From the NCBI GenBank assembly GCA_035578175.1, contig JAQMRL010000002.1, forward strand, positions 130,140,171 through 130,204,170: 64,000 nt of DNA, read 5' to 3'. Position numbers and translations under genes: made by a program. Below, one piece after another: positions 1 to 64,000 of the stretch. The notes below the pieces were generated by a model. That model had not been told where the DNA came from. It ran no database searches and saw only the letters and a list, made by a program, of their open reading frames with translations. Each line of letters opens with the position of its first letter. The stretch's first letter is position 1. The DNA is from Catonia carolina (Eukaryota > Arthropoda > Insecta > Hemiptera > Achilidae).

Positions 1-36062
<36,062 letters not shown>

Positions 36063-43198: not shown

Positions 43199-43680
43199 TT
43201 AATGGTGATTCTTCTTCTTCTTTTTCTTCTTCAGAACAATCTTCTCTCAAGAAATAATGTGTGAATTGATTAAAACAGAAGGGGAAAAGCTATACGCTTA
43301 TGACTTAAAAACACATAAAGCAATATAACTTTTCCTGCTCTGTAGAAATCATCCAAATCAAGAACACCGATGATATCCATCCAAAACGTATTTCATAACT
43401 GTGGCCATCATAAAATTGTAAACTTCCTATTAAGATATAATTACAAATAGAACAACACTGATAATAATTTGTTTTACGGGTAGACATTTATGTCGGCACA
43501 GAGTATTAAAGAGAACACAGGCCTCTTTTATGAACACATTACTTATTTCAATATATCATTTTTTTAAATTTTGTTTGTTTATTGATGCATGTAAAAATCC
43601 ATAGTACTAAACACAGTTATTTTTATTTTTTATCAAACATCCTAAGTAGGATTTTAAACAGCCATATTATTTAAAATTCA

Positions 43681-43960
43681 AATATATATTTCTAACCACA
43701 AGAATACGGTAACATAAAACACTTAGCAATGTTGAGGCGCTTTGTATCCTGTACACATCTTCAGTAATCAAAATTCATTAAATTTTTTTCTTAAACGTCA
43801 AAATTTAAAACTTCCTACTCCTACCATGGTACATAAGAATCCAAAAAAAAATTTAATGAATATACATTTACGGAAGATGTGTACAAGATACACGAAAGCG
43901 TTAACATTGGCAAGTGTTTTATGTTACCGTATTCTGGTGGTTAGAAATATATATTCCAAG
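43681..43960. repeat. fold-back element with hammerhead-like remnants
   Basis: Arms 43681-43790 and 43851-43960 are inverted copies sharing TCTAACCAC, GAATACGGTAACATAAAACA, CAATGTT and GTACACATCTTC. The left arm (minus strand) keeps CTGAAGA then U and a GUGU/AUAC hairpin but has lost the G of GAAA. The right arm keeps GAAA but has CGGAAGA. Related to the repeat broken by the mariner at 4.1 kb. Confidence 0.65.
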
Positions 43961-45500: not shown

Positions 45501-45786
45501 CTCTCTACAAATAAATGATCCAGCATAATTTAAATATTACTAAAACAAGCAAAGTATTTAATCATTAGCAACACCATTTTGTTTTCAAAAAAAAAAATTA
45601 AGTTCAGCAGCTGTTGTACCACATGACTGTACACAAATATAGTTCCTAATTCTGCCGATTAAATATTTCACTTGCTTTAGTTATGCTTTATTTTTCATGA
45701 ATAAGCTCACATCATTTATTATAAATATTAGACAATAATCCAATGTATTAAATAAAATATTTATGAAATACTAAAACATACATATA

Positions 45787-47095
45787 CGAGGGGGTACCCA
45801 AAAGTATCCGGAATAGCTCTGCTGTGGGCGGAGCTTGTGCAGTACAAATTCCCGCCACTAGGCTGCTTGTAGCGCTACTCATTGCCAGTTCAATGCCATT
45901 TTGTTCGTTGATCTAGCTTGTTCTGTTCTCGTGCAGTGATTGTTCTCGCTAGTGCTGTTTTGTGCTCGTGTCGTTTTTCATGATGGCAAGTTTTAATGAA
46001 CAACGTGCGGCTGTGAAATTTTGCTTCTTGCTCGGTAAAAACACCGCGGAAACAGTTGTAATGTTGAACACAGCTTACAAAGATGACGCTATTGGAAAAA
46101 CCCAAGTGTACGAGTGGTTTTTGCGCTTTAAAAATGGCGACATGTCGATTGAGAACAAACCTCGTTCTGGACGACCGTCGACTTCCCGAACAGACGAAAA
46201 TGTTGTGAAAGTGAAAGAAATTGTACGAACAGACCGACGACAGACCATTGACCAAATATCACAGGTTAGTGGGTTATCTTGGACCTCAGTCCAACGCATT
46301 TTAACAGAAGACTTGACAATGAAAAGAGTCGCTGCCAAGTTTGTGCCTCGGGTTCTGACAGACACTCAAAAGAACGTCGAATTGAAACGTGTAGTGATTT
46401 GAAACAACAGCTTGAAACTGATCCAGATTTCATGTCAAAGATCATTACGGGTGACGAGTCTTGGTGCTATGGGTACGACCCAGAAACCAAACAACAATCC
46501 AGTCAATGGAAGACTTCATTATCACCCCGACCAAAAAAAAGTCGTCAAGTCAGATCGAACATCAAAACAATGCTGATTTGTTTTTTTGATGTAAGGGGAA
46601 TTGTCCATTCAGAGTTCGTTCCACCAGGCCAGACGGTAAATCAAGCTTTTTATCTTGAGTGTTAAGAAGACTACGAAACAGCATTCGTCGTAAAAGACCT
46701 AATTTGTGGCAGACATGGGACTGGTTTTTCCACCACGACAACGCGCCTGCACACACGGCAATCTCGGTTACCCAGTTTTTGGCGAAAAACGGCATGGTTT
46801 TGCTACCACACGCACCGTACTCACCCGATCTGGCTCCGTGTGATTTTTTCTTGTTCCCACGCATGAAAGGTCTCCGATTTAACAACGTTGATGATGTCAA
46901 GAAAAAAACGACGGATGAGCTGGCAGCCACCACTGAAGAGGAGTACAAAAAATGTTTTGAACAGTGGAAACACCGCTGGGACAAATGTATTAGTTGTAAT
47001 GGAGAGTATTTTGAAGGGGATAAGGTTCTTTTGTAAAAAAATTAAAAATAAATAGTTTTAAAAAATAATTCCGGTTTCTTTTGGGTACCCCCTCG
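45787..47095 (+). mobile_element. mariner-like element, copy 2 (1309 bp)
   Basis: Same family as 4114-5426: identical CGAGGGGGTACCCAAAAG termini, TA on both sides. It sits 16 bp from the MITE at 47112. Confidence 0.95.
45980..47036 (+). pseudogene. mariner DD34D transposase, broken (copy 2)
   Basis: The N-terminal half is open for 141 codons from the paired Met at 45980 and stops at 46402 at the family-wide -1 break. The catalytic half is then open until a one-base loss near 46658 (FYLEC stop), and a third frame carries the second and third Asp blocks to a normal end (EYFEGDKVLL). A 12-base in-frame loss removes RGMK near 46866. Inactive. Confidence 0.93.
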
Positions 47096-47111
47096 TATAT
47101 TATTTTTAATG

Positions 47112-55961: not shown

Positions 55962-56000
55962 ATTTATTTTGTTTGTTTATTACTACAAATGACATTAATA

Positions 56001-57320
56001 CGAGGGGGTACCCAAAAGAAACCGAAATTATTTTTTAAAACTATTTATTTTTAATTTTTTTACAAAAGAACCTTATCCCCTTCAAAATACTCTCCATTAC
56101 AACTAATACATTTGTCCCACCGGTGCTTCCACTGTTCAAAACATTTTTTGTACTCCTCTTCAGTGATGGCTGCCAGCTCATCCGTCGTTTTTTTCTTGAC
56201 ATCATCAACATTGTAAAATCGGAGACCTTTCATGCCCCTTTTCATGCATGGGAACAAGAAAAAAATCACACGGAGCCAGATCGGGTGAGTACGGTGCGTG
56301 TGGTAGCAAAACCATGCCGTTTTTCGCCAAAAACTGGGTAACCGAGATTGCCGTGTGTGCAGGCGCGTTGTCGTGGTGGAAAAACCAGTCCCCTGTCTGC
56401 CACAAATTAGGTCTTTTACGACAAATGCTGTTTCGTAGTCTTCTTAACACTTCAAGATAAAAAGCTTGATTTACCGTCTGGCCTGGTGGAACGAACTCTG
56501 AATGGACAATTCCCCTCACATCAAAAAAACAAATCAGCATTGTTTTGATGTTCGATCTGACTTGACTTTTTTTTGGTCGGGGTGATAATGAAGTCTTCCA
56601 TTGACTGGATTGTTGTTTGGTTTCTGGGTCGTACCCATAGCACCAAGACTCGTCACCCGTAATGATCTTTGACATGAAATCTGGATCAGTTTCAAGCTGT
56701 TGTTTCAAATCACTACACGTTTCAATTCGACGTTCTTTTGAGTGTCTGTCAGAACCCGAGGCACAAACTTGGCAGCGACTCTTTTCATTGTCAAGTCTTC
56801 TGTTAAAATGCGTTGGACTGAGCTCCAAGATAACCCACTAACCTGTGATATTTGGTCAATGGTCCGTCGTCGGTCTGTTTGTACAATTTCTTTCACTTTC
56901 ACAACATTTTCGTCTGTTCGGGAAGTCGACGGTCGTCCAGAACGAGGTTTGTTCTCAATCGACATGTCGCCATTTTTAAAGCGCAAAAACCACTCGTACA
57001 CTTGGGTTTTTCCAATAGCAACGTCTTTGTAAGCTGTGTTCAACATTACAACTGTTTCCGCGGCGTTTTTACCGAGCAAGAAGCAAAATTTCACAGCCGC
57101 ACGTTGTTCATTAAAACTTGCCATCATGAAAAACGACACGAGCACAAAACAGCACTAGCGAGAACAATCACTGCACGAGAACAGAACAAGCTAGATCAAC
57201 GAACAAAATGGCATTGAATTGGCAATGAGTAGCGCTACAAGCAGCCTAGTGGCGGGAATTTGTATTGCACAAGCTCCGCCCACAGCAGAGCTATTCCGGA
57301 TACTTTTGGGTACCCCCTCG
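56001..57320 (-). mobile_element. mariner-like element, copy 3 (1320 bp)
   Basis: Third copy of the 4.1-kb family, in reverse, with the same termini and TA on both sides. Longest of the three: it keeps both the RGMK and GLRF segments lost separately in the others. Confidence 0.95.
56060..57127 (-). pseudogene. mariner DD34D transposase, broken (copy 3)
   Basis: The N-terminal half is open from the paired Met at 57127 to the family-wide -1 break (stop at 56705). The catalytic half is open through TGDESW, HHDNAPAHTA and YSPDLAPCD, then loses frame at a T-run with one extra T near 56270; the C-terminus MKGLRFYNVDDVKKKT to DKVLL follows in the next frame. Closest of the three to intact. Confidence 0.93.
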
Positions 57321-57738
57321 TATACTTTACAATACTTATTTATACAGCCAAGTATCCTTAACCGCCATAATTATAGAATCAAATACAATACCCAGTAAGT
57401 AGCTACACCACCTACTGACACTATTTCAAACGGCCAACACTCACTTTATAATACCTAGTAAAATACTACACAATGAAGAGGTAGATGCCTTTTTATATCC
57501 TAATTTTGATTTTTAAAAAGATGGAGAAAGGGTGTTGTGGTAGAACTCCTAACTCGATAAATAAGTCATAAATACTTATTAAGTATCAAATTGTAATAAC
57601 AATTATTGAAAATACACATGCGCATACTTGACTTGGACCCTGCATACCCCTCCGACCTACAGTTAGATGTACAGTCAAGAGTATTGTTAAAAATTGACAA
57701 CACACATCGTATTTCGTAGGCATGCTGTTCCATTGTTG
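57321..57738. other. no feature recognised
   Basis: AT-rich DNA between the mariner and a palindromic repeat; nothing recognised. Confidence 0.45.
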
Positions 57739-60610: not shown

Positions 60611-61640
60611 AAAAATAATAATAAATTAACACACATTTGAAGGAACAAGAGTGCCTGTATTACACAGCCAGGTGCCACTGGCAAGTCATGTTGATAACTG
60701 TCAATATATAATGTCACGATTGCTTTAAAAATACTTTGGTTTACTTTCCTCAAAAAATGTTCTGCTTTGCAGTTAAATACATATTCAAATTAGATGCGAA
60801 CTGGTTCTCATGGTTAGGATTGTTCATGCCAATCATCTTTTGTAACCACATTTAAGGCATACAACCAACAAGAGAACAGTGTTAGTTTACATTAGTTCCA
60901 TAATGGAACAGACCATAAAAAAAATAAAAATCTTGACAACCTTATTTTAATCTTTACATACAAACTTTTTCGAACCTTTATTTTTCTAATAAAATATCTC
61001 AATTGGTAATACAAATCCAAGCGTTCATCTTATCAGAGAAAGCAAGTGAGATATTTATGCCTTGTTGCACAACTAGGGAAAGAAATATAGGTGTAACCAC
61101 AGTAAAGCACATGCCCCCTGGCTCATTTAGTAAAACAAAAAGATACAGGTCAACAGGAATAGTATTACGCGACAAGAAACCATGATATCGTCATGGTGGA
61201 AAAAACACCATCTTGTTTTTCTGATTTAGTTCCCTACTTACGTGCTGCAATCAGTGCAAGTGAGTCAGTTGTGAAGCTGAACTTTAGTACAACCAATGAA
61301 AAGGAAAAAATGTGCCCAAATGCCATACTAAAGGATAGGATATAACTAGCTGTCTAGTTAAAGAAACGTAACTCAATCGATAAAACAGGCACTACTTATG
61401 TTGTCTCTTGCATAAAAAGAGGGTTTTGTCAAGACAGTCAGAACTCCCACAGGCTGGAGATGAAATAAGATTTAAATAGGTTCGAATAGCATTGCAACTA
61501 ATTACTTTTAGCATTTTCATATATTCAAATAAAAAACATTTTTTAATAAAACTTTTCTTATTTTTGCCCAGAAAATCCTAAATACGCCTATGAAAAGAAT
61601 AATTGCTTTTAAAATTAAGTTTTTCAACGTAAAAACATTA
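60611..61640. other. no feature recognised
   Basis: AT-rich, no coding or repeat signal seen. Confidence 0.5.
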
Positions 61641-61713
61641 CTATTTCATATAATGAATTAATATAATAATTTCACTAACCTTCTTTTTAAACTGCGTCAC
61701 CTTTATTTCAATT

Positions 61714-61757
61714 TTTACTTACACGTGTTTCGGTGGATCCACAATCATCAGAGTAAA
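61714..61757 (-). ncRNA. hammerhead ribozyme, left arm
   Basis: Mirror copy of the right-arm ribozyme on the minus strand: CUGAUGA at 61751-61745, GAAA, ACACGUGU and helix I TTTACT/AGTAAA intact. One base in helix II is changed (UGUG opposite CACC), leaving three pairs, so it is probably weaker. Confidence 0.6.
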
Positions 61758-61954
61758 TGAAAAGTAGAAACTAAAAATTTTTTTCATTTATTTTAAATTT
61801 ACAGAAGATGATACATCTTCAGTCACTTGTATAAAATATATTTATAAATAATATATATAAAATATATAAATAAAATTTTATACAAGTGACTGAAGATGTA
61901 TCATCTTCTGTAAATTTTAAATAAATGAAAAAAATTTTTAGTTTCTACTTTTCA

Positions 61955-61998
61955 TTTACTCTGATGATGGTGGATCCACCGAAACACGTGTAAGTAAA
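61955..61998 (+). ncRNA. hammerhead ribozyme (type I layout), right arm
   Basis: Helix I pairs 61955-61960 with 61993-61998 (six Watson-Crick pairs). CUGAUGA is at 61961-61967, an extra U at 61968, helix II GGUG/CACC with GAUC loop at 61969-61980, and GAAA at 61981-61984. Helix III is the self-complementary ACACGUGU 61984-61991. A at 61992 is position 17, with cleavage predicted between 61992 and 61993. All core positions are canonical except the inserted U before helix II. Dimerisation through helix III would be needed. Confidence 0.75.
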
Positions 61999-62071
61999 AA
62001 TTGAAATAAAGGTGACGCAGTTTAAAAAGAAGGTTAGTGAAATTATTATATTAATTCATTATATGAAATAG

Positions 62072-64000
62072 AAATATTTCAAACTGCAGGATGCATTATA
62101 AAGATTTATTTTTGAGTAAAAACATTATTTATTCAAGTTTTCCAATGCCCTTATACTTCTTTTCGTAAACATTGTAAGTTTCAAGCAAAGTCTCACATTT
62201 ACCTTATTTTCTATTAACTAAATAAATACCACATAATTTATGAACTACAATAAAACAGTAATAATAAATACTTTTATAACACCACTACTTGGTATCCAAA
62301 AATTATTATGTTTAGTAGCACACAAAATGATGTATTACTAGGCATATAACCTAACCATATACATATAACCGTTCAAAACAAACCTACTAAATAAAAAAAT
62401 ATTGTAATTTTGTCCACTAGTACTTAAGAAATCTATTAAACAAAATTAATAAAAATACTATTTATCAACGTTTCTGGGTACTGTATTAAAAAAAATTTCT
62501 GAAGGTGCAAAAAATGTTAAAAACAGTAACAAAAAAATCAATGTTTTGAAAACTACTATTTCTTGCAAGTTACACAAGGCAGCAATAAAATCCGTGTTCA
62601 GTAAATTAGTTCAAAGAACAGCTATCGTTACATGGCTGTTATATTTAACGTAAAAAAGGTTGCCCGTATATAGATGGTTAGATGATTATAAACATGGTTT
62701 AAAATCTAGGGGGAAAGTAATTTCACATTGAAAAATTTAAAAACTATTACATACCTTTATAGGTCAGTTAAATAATTTAAATCATTAACACAATCATAAC
62801 CGTTGTTAATTGTTATATCAGAGAAATTTACCCGATTCGTTTTTAACACTAATTTTACATACTAAATACATCTAGAAAACCATGCATCTGTTTTGTTATG
62901 GTATAATATATGCCAATAAGCATCTTAAAAACTAAATTTTAAATCACTAATTTTTAAAACTTGATAATAAACTGACTTGTAACCAATCAGCCATAAGTCT
63001 AACAGGGAAGTATATTTCAATTAAATTTTTAGTTACAATCGATATAAAAAATTAAATACGTACCTAAAACCATACAAGTTTTTTTCAGAATTTAAATTAT
63101 AAAATAAAAAGTGTTATTAAATGAGAAGTGTAAATATAATGCAAATATAAACCAACATATAAACTCAAATATAAACAAACATTAATAAAAACTATAAAAC
63201 AACAGCTTTAGACATCAGTGGAAATAAGGTACATAAACAGTATAACCTACTCAAACCTGTCTAAATGGCAATAAAAAACCCGATGGTGAAACTATCAAAC
63301 AAAACAAACCAACAATGATAGTAGATATAGCCTATCAACAAATATACAATATTGTCAACATTCAATAATACAATAATATAACCTACCATTAAACCAGAAA
63401 ACTCAGGTTAGTATTGACAAGTATTATGATCAGAACAAATCATTGAAAAATTTTTTTATCTCATTTAACCCATTTTGTCATTTTCTATGGGGTAAAGAGA
63501 ATATGAATATTGTATACTTAATGTAATATATGTCATCCTTTCAGAAAAATGAACGTTTAAAAGTTCTTAGAGAAGTACATTGTAATTAAAAGAATTAATG
63601 AAAATAACCAAATACATCTCACCGATATATAAACAATACAACTTCCATGTAATATTATTAAACTCATTAATTAAAAATTAATTTTCCATATAAAAAACCA
63701 AACATGCAACAAATATGTAAACAAAAACAAAAATATACTCAACTGTAAACAAAGTTGGCTTACATTAGCCAATAACTAAAATATTAAGGTACTAATCTAC
63801 TATAACCTGTTAATTTTTTCCATTCGGAATTTATGAGAAACAGGACATAAATCAGAATTATCAAAATTTTTCAGAAACAAATTCAAATATTTTCTGCAGA
63901 CCAGTTTTTTATTTATTAAATTACCTGCAGACTATACTAAATATATAGCACTCCTAACCAAATGTAAACAATTAACAAGCCAACCATGATAAATAAATAA
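62072..64000. other. no feature recognised
   Basis: Very AT-rich DNA. No exon with coding potential, no promoter and no repeat shared with the rest of the window was recognised. The kis 5' noncoding exon was not located here or elsewhere. Confidence 0.5.

Follow-up and report, generated by a model that had tools for sequence, protein, structure and literature searches.

A hammerhead motif as a regular part of head-to-head Penelope-like retrotransposon ends in Catonia carolina

Results

A palindromic insertion with a hammerhead-type motif

The stretch of Catonia carolina DNA analysed here (the window; 64,000 nt) carries near its right end a 447-bp near-perfect palindrome, whose right arm houses a hammerhead-type motif, with a mirror copy on the minus strand. 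The palindrome lies within an insertion, E2, which we assign below to the Penelope-like retrotransposons (PLEs) and which has the following parts.

61629-61640, no strand: left target-site duplication, 12 bp, GTAAAAACATTA (window letters and copy comparison)
61641-62115, no strand: element E2, two PLE pLTR ends arranged head-to-head, 475 bp
61641-61855, minus: tail-less arm of E2, sense outward (centre approximate)
61714-61757, minus: second hammerhead copy, in this other arm, where a G-to-T change disrupts the first pair of helix II
61856-62071, plus: right arm of E2, up to the endpoint of the other arm (centre approximate)
61955-61960 with 61993-61998, plus: helix I of the hammerhead
61961-61967 and 61968, plus: CUGAUGA and the extra U
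61969-61980, plus: helix II
61981-61983, plus: GAA
61984-61991 and 61992, plus: palindromic helix III and A
61992/61993, plus: predicted cut
62072-62115, plus: PLE 'tail', on the right arm only (copy comparison)
62116-62127, no strand: right target-site duplication, 12 bp (window letters and copy comparison)

From 61955 to 61998 the plus strand reads TTTACT CTGATGA T GGTG GATC CACC GAA ACACGTGT A AGTAAA, that is, a perfect helix I of six pairs, CUGAUGA with one extra U, GGUG/CACC, GAAA, the palindrome ACACGUGU and UA, exactly the letters in which a first-pass annotation of the sequence had seen a hammerhead core with six perfect helix I pairs. This hammerhead-type motif is confirmed as real and far beyond chance, as the annotation had also claimed. 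A strict descriptor (CTGATGA, helix I of at least 6, helix II of at least 4, palindrome of at least 8) finds two sites in the window, the E2 motif and a minus-strand copy in an element at 28.5 kb (E1, see below), but no site in 903 windows of 64 kb that were simulated with a first-order Markov model, which rules out a chance origin. On a looser score, the two intact hammerheads of E2 and E1 reach 18 and 21, against a maximum of 15 in 330 simulated windows. The G-to-T change of the second E2 copy is absent from all other E2-family arms aligned (about 40).

How far does the motif agree with a type I hammerhead? The conserved core and pairing stems I and II recur in unrelated sequences, the strands having been assigned manually and in part chosen by the descriptor. 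There is no match to an Rfam model: no hammerhead was called in the window, neither at gathering scores nor at E up to 5, nor in 61900-62050 alone at E up to 10. Nor is there a stable intramolecular stem III, this being a zero-loop palindrome that pairs fully in a dimer only; as no full hairpin is possible, the fold would need a dimer or the help of a protein. As a single strand, the entire E2 palindrome is predicted to form one long hairpin (-302 kcal/mol), and the isolated 44-nt motif is no more stable than its shuffles (z -0.20). In its canonical fold the motif is predicted at -23.3 kcal/mol as a dimer and at -4.0 as a monomer; the most stable dimer in the prediction (-31.0) is instead held together by helix II of E2, which is self-complementary, and does not form the hammerhead.

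E2 copies share one tail and a 12-bp duplication

In the source genome (assembly of 1.47 Gb), the E2 arm gave 588 first-look candidates; 40 were scored and all 40 matched, yielding 78 matches, many of them inverted pairs. Twenty copies were fetched from the best-scoring list and are not a random sample. Both arms are present in 19 of them, which together with the window makes 20 two-armed copies, and in every one of these one arm continues past the equivalent of 62071 by a constant stretch of about 44 nt and the other arm stops. In 19 of these 20 copies, window included, the two flanks have 12 bp or more in common (mean 12.05, versus 5.9 with a maximum of 12 in 380 mismatched pairings), giving E2 the target-site duplication of a PLE and fixing its limits in the window at 61641-62115. 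The exception, L215, has no duplication, and its tail-less arm ends early. Among the truncated E2 arms, those of L284, L285, L286, L213 and L218 share a start at about 61924-61935, an A/T run.

E2 is the pLTR region of a PLE

Five further E2 copies, those first listed as one-armed, were searched for frames; an opposite-strand hammerhead proved to lie nearby in three of them. Nearly identical 200 nt precede the E2 hammerhead in L276, L277, L279 and L280, and in L278 the match to these 200 nt is limited to their end, next to the pLTR. L276 (97 aa), L277 (57 aa) and L280 (454 aa) have an open frame that terminates 115 nt upstream of the hammerhead, so that this spacing is found in three of the five; no long frame is listed for L279. 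The 454-aa frame of L280 matches RVT_1 (2.6e-10), and hmmscan gave no GIY-YIG match for it. The shared lead-in, the frame 115 nt upstream and the RVT_1 match together identify E2 as the pLTR region of a PLE.

A PLE should carry both a reverse transcriptase and a GIY-YIG domain, and both are found in L244, a third family and the stretch that surrounds the hammerhead of L240 (see below), in pieces matching RVT_1 (PF00078, 1.3e-9) and GIY-YIG (PF01541, 1.1e-7); the E2 family itself shows RVT_1 only (L280). The head-to-head arms of L244 are 99.5% identical over 832 nt, each with a hammerhead after the frame. A genome search with PF01541 gave 904 candidates, 150 of which were scored, all 150 over the cut-off. 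In 20 of the 30 best-scoring of these loci a hammerhead follows 84 to 159 nt past the frame end in the same sense, E1-type in L252, L253 and L261; in the other ten, one of them without an identified frame, no hammerhead reached the score at the expected place. Where GIY-YIG neighbours within 6 kb lie on opposite strands, 19 of 19 are head-to-head (a hand count over the 150 rows); one further neighbour pair is same-strand.

E2 is thus shown to be a short PLE insertion in which the pLTR region is present twice, head-to-head, and its hammerhead to be a regular pLTR part, located after the PLE frame (about 84-159 nt in several families) and before the 'tail'. This link to PLEs rules out a stand-alone or independent ribozyme.

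The same evidence bears on two readings of E2 as another kind of element. A fold-back or MITE DNA transposon would likewise have near-perfect inverted repeats and a target-site duplication, with the motif present by coincidence. However, the arms are unequal, one of them being extended by a tail of about 44 nt, several families have the hammerhead next to a reverse-transcriptase or GIY-YIG frame, and the strict descriptor found nothing in the 903 simulated windows; such a coincidence is exceedingly improbable, and the unequal arms and the link to open frames rule out a fold-back DNA element. A metazoan retrozyme, being a small non-autonomous element that carries type I hammerheads and moves through circular RNA, would agree with the hammerhead type, the low GC content and the arm length of about 200-260 nt, metazoan retrozyme RNAs being reported at about 170-400 nt (PMC7229834). 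Yet the copies are inverted pairs with PLE tails and target-site duplications, rather than direct tandem units without a frame of their own, and longer copies contain PLE frames. We consider a retrozyme very unlikely and reject it on the inverted pairs and the PLE frames.

A second PLE family and further hammerheads

The 28.5-kb element and two older palindromes provide the remaining hammerhead-related features of the window.

28488-28778, no strand: element E1, second PLE family, head-to-head pLTR ends, with the tail on the right arm (about 28743-28778)
28545-28594, minus: intact E1 hammerhead, with 8-bp helix I and helix III AAGGCCUU
28639-28685, plus: hammerhead of the other E1 arm, which lacks 3 nt past helix III
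43681-43955, no strand: P3, older palindrome with decayed hammerhead, 84-89% like the pLTR of the PLE in L244
19189-19377, no strand: P4, older palindrome with hammerhead-like remnant

The core that the first-pass annotation had placed in the 28.5-kb element thus stands for the minus-strand copy, which is intact, and fails for the plus-strand copy, which lacks three bases. Outside the core, the DNA of E1 and E2 has no significant similarity, in line with the annotation, and its palindromic helix III and fold-back setting hold for both. Its description of the two ribozymes as independent does not, both being pLTR ends of PLEs in the same genome, and its interpretation is partly supported overall.

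The E1 arm gave 431 first-look candidates in the genome, of which 40 were scored, yielding 60 matches. The 20 copies fetched came from the best-scoring list, mostly where a pair was visible, and so are not random; 15 of them and the window are two-armed, and all 16 have one tailed and one tail-less arm. Together with the 20 of 20 E2 pairs, this makes a one-tail rule that holds in 36 of the 36 two-armed copies examined, in agreement with the 30-40 bp tail on one arm that is expected of a PLE. The target sites of E1 are TA repeats, and its own flank pairs share no more than mismatched ones.

L275 is an apparently complete E1 copy, consisting of an inverted pLTR, a direct pLTR, an 841-aa frame, a 3' pLTR and a tail, and so has pLTRs around a frame with an inverted pLTR head-to-head, as a PLE should; each pLTR has a hammerhead, and a partial second copy follows. 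The 841-aa protein has no Pfam match over the cut-off in hmmscan. Its best homologue is 52% identical across 99% of its length; among 28 homologues PF00078 is listed for 23 and PF01541 for 2, and in the genome search its locus, C1:61248136, scores over the GIY-YIG cut-off.

In a palindrome scan of the window, the four short-spacer palindromes scoring above 45 are E2, E1, P3 and P4, against a maximum of 33 in four simulated windows; two further palindromes at that level have spacers of more than 300 nt. The hammerheads of E2 and E1 are clear, and both read outward from the palindrome centre. The remnant in P4 ranks fourth in the looser scan with a score of 10, a level at which 0.14 matches are expected per window. 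That in P3 scores 7, behind two unrelated matches (9 and 8), and is credible only through its intact relative in L240. A hammerhead scan of the fetched E2 and E1 loci (104,740 nt) revealed two additional hammerhead families, and the one in L240 is positioned after a GIY-YIG frame.

Three other features were observed in the window. One element is present in three copies (4107-5429, 45783-47098 and 55998-57327) that are mutually 97-98% identical and have transposase-like frames, presumably of mariner type by their look. A mir-965 microRNA precursor, which we take to represent an insect microRNA family, lies on the minus strand at 43274-43344 (Rfam, E 2.5e-12). At 8159-8752, a tandem repeat of about 63 bp retains an open reading frame of 197 aa.

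No PLE hammerhead turned up in viral contigs or bacterial genomes, where pattern scans covered 72 loci and 80 of at least 120 matched stretches; structure filters on these loci left one phage hammerhead in two copies (L111, L112), a weak match (L020) and a few poor ones. Further pattern scans gave three matches without the fold in one case and none in two others. The phage sequence, at 9608-9649 on the minus strand of L111 and in L112 (both IMG/VR viral contigs), is a type I hammerhead of textbook form, in which helices I-III are all perfect and the extra U is present as well, and it apparently lies between two genes; Rfam called no hammerhead in 9400-9900 of L111 at E up to 1.

Hammerhead pairing is retained between families

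Within the E2 family a test for compensatory changes is impossible because the copies are nearly identical, the motif varying at 2 of 44 positions (61969 and 61984) among about 40 arms. We therefore compared families. In six sequences from four families, with four pairs counted per helix and same-family mixes excluded, 47 of 48 pairs of helices I and II form with their own strands, versus 101 of 208 with the partner of another family, and at 6 of the 8 pair positions tested the bases on both sides differ between families. An earlier count (four sequences, five helix I pairs) gave 35 of 36 and 50 of 108, respectively. Pairs were counted by script on hand-set strands, a MAFFT alignment of the family cores not having been useful, and the counts are partly circular, since the further families were found with a descriptor in which pairing in helix II and a palindromic helix III were obligatory and pairing in helix I raised the score. 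The constant position of the hammerhead after the PLE frame is free of this selection bias.

Helix III is a perfect palindrome of 8 or 6 nt in all six sequences: ACACGUGU, AAGGCCUU (twice), AGAUAUCU, AGAUCU and AGCGCU. The extra U is found in the intact hammerheads of every family, the decayed P4 having a C there, and one or two inserted nucleotides beside CUGAnGA occur in known alignments (PMC10085705); it is thus not the unusual base that the first reading had made of it. Together with A9 and the next G, it forms an AUG, which is present in every intact hammerhead listed and in E2, where it starts at 61967, lies 26 nt from the predicted cut. Could it start the PLE frame? In the unspliced DNA of E2, its frame closes after eight codons, and the first ATG of the long frame in L275 lies about 110 nt beyond it, within the stretch that is the tail in short copies, which speaks against such a start. 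Downstream of the hammerhead, at 61990-62089 in E2 and 28689-28753 in E1, are sequences that resemble splice donors (GTAAGT, GTAAGA) and acceptors, which gives the appearance of a small intron separating hammerhead from tail; L244 has a GTAAGT after its hammerhead as well.

Discussion

What can be said about the way in which these insertions arose? Taking the evidence together, we consider it highly probable that E2 is a PLE pLTR pair that arose by two-strand priming, with the hammerhead as a regular pLTR part. The PLE protein would cut both target strands with a stagger of 12 nt, and each cut 3' end would prime reverse transcription at one of two internal RNA starts about 40 nt apart; with one start site per strand, a tailed and a tail-less arm would result. 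The two cDNAs may then stop near the 5' end of the RNA, or at a truncation, and be joined there, creating the palindrome. Transcripts that read outward from it would carry the hammerhead in sense.

The main rival is the formation of the palindrome by snap-back self-priming of a single cDNA instead of priming on two strands, still in the course of a PLE insertion. The palindrome centres, being nested palindromes with variable joints, are consistent with it, and so are the only two non-majority variants common to both arms of one copy (L204 at 61984, the window at 61948), which fit a single source or else a common one; self-priming is also favoured for head-to-head structures in PMC3846280, though there with an antisense template. 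However, a snap-back should copy the tail too, yet the second arm is tail-less in all 36 pairs; the arms may end at different 5' points (L225, L284), and the Anolis PLE protein cuts and extends both strands (PMC11167929). On balance, snap-back seems somewhat unlikely, and we prefer two-strand priming.

For the hammerhead itself, cleavage would need either two RNAs, which share the 8-bp helix III, or the PLE protein, and would most likely serve to separate the units of tandem PLE transcripts. The usual template of reverse transcription is probably the uncut RNA, because nearly all copies examined span the predicted cut site, a template also proposed for the Anolis PLE (PMC11167929). Among the genomic matches listed, nine arms (six of E2, three of E1) are truncated by more than 40 nt at their start, and two of them hint at cleavage, if weakly: that of L208, in E2, begins at the predicted 3' product end (61993) to within one base, and that of L281, in E1, at most 2 nt from the equivalent of the predicted cut. 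In both loci, the arm start is preceded by short filler repeats similar to the bases that immediately follow the cut, as though the enzyme had stuttered on reaching the 5' end of the RNA.

Alternatively, the hammerhead could be a relic without cleavage activity, kept by its overlap with signals for reverse transcription or translation such as the AUG. That nearly all copies span the cut site, that every intact hammerhead listed contains the AUG, and that hammerhead mutants of the Anolis PLE still insert in vitro (PMC11167929) would all agree with a relic. Helices I and II, on the other hand, differ two-sidedly between families and still pair, and helix III is palindromic, subject to the selection noted above, and the arm starts of L208 and L281 lie at or near the point where a cleaved RNA would begin. 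A relic is unlikely in our judgement.

A more speculative possibility, which we view with considerable doubt, is that helix III acts as a tether more than as part of a self-cutter, joining two PLE RNAs in a protein dimer to be reverse-transcribed together. If true, both cut strands of one target would be copied at once, one from each internal start site, which would explain the head-to-head palindrome with exactly one tail as well as the palindromic helix III of each family. Among the titles and abstract openings surveyed, none proposes such a tether between two templates. More generally, the one-tail rule, the 12-bp duplication and the palindromic hammerheads lead to predictions about two target strands, and possibly two RNAs, per insertion, and this one genome holds many similar copies in several PLE families.

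Comparison with known systems

PLE hammerheads, their dimeric stem III and head-to-head pLTRs are already known in print (PMC7761336, PMC6466107, PMC3846280). Minimal dimeric type I hammerheads of PLEs have been published (Cervera and de la Pena, 2014; Lunse et al., 2017; via PMC7761336, PMC6466107 and PMC10085705), and as reported there they resemble those described here in their CUGANGA/GAAA core, in a short or palindromic stem III that needs a dimer, and in their location in the pLTR. They differ in that the short copies are tandem there and head-to-head here, and in that helix III is here a zero-loop palindrome of 8 or 6 nt in six sequences. The dimeric hammerhead of Aedes aegypti (PMC3088659) likewise stems from an insect genome and has a palindromic loop III that pairs fully only in the dimer, while the supplementary legend describing it mentions neither a PLE nor a fold-back setting.

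In Adineta vaga, a typical Penelope insertion is described as having an inverted pLTR, mostly head-to-head, with palindromes at the inverted joint and an optional tail on one pLTR (PMC3846280). The insertions characterized here share the head-to-head inverted pLTR, the joint palindromes, the tail and a short target-site duplication, but among the fetched copies pairs consisting of pLTRs only are common, the E2 duplication is a near-constant 12 bp, and all 36 pairs obey the one-tail rule.

A further parallel is Poseidon_Ac of Anolis carolinensis (PMC11167929), whose protein is reported to cut and extend both strands, reverse transcription starting from two internal RNA sites that bound the tail. 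As in E2, its hammerhead adjoins an AUG that lies 26 nt from the cut; the tail between two internal reverse-transcription starts and the AT-rich targets are further likenesses. In contrast, the first ATG of the long E1 frame is not the hammerhead AUG but lies about 110 nt on, inside the tail. Moreover, no strand difference in start site was seen in vitro in that report, so that the one-tail rule, at 36 of 36 genomic pairs, goes beyond the Anolis result.
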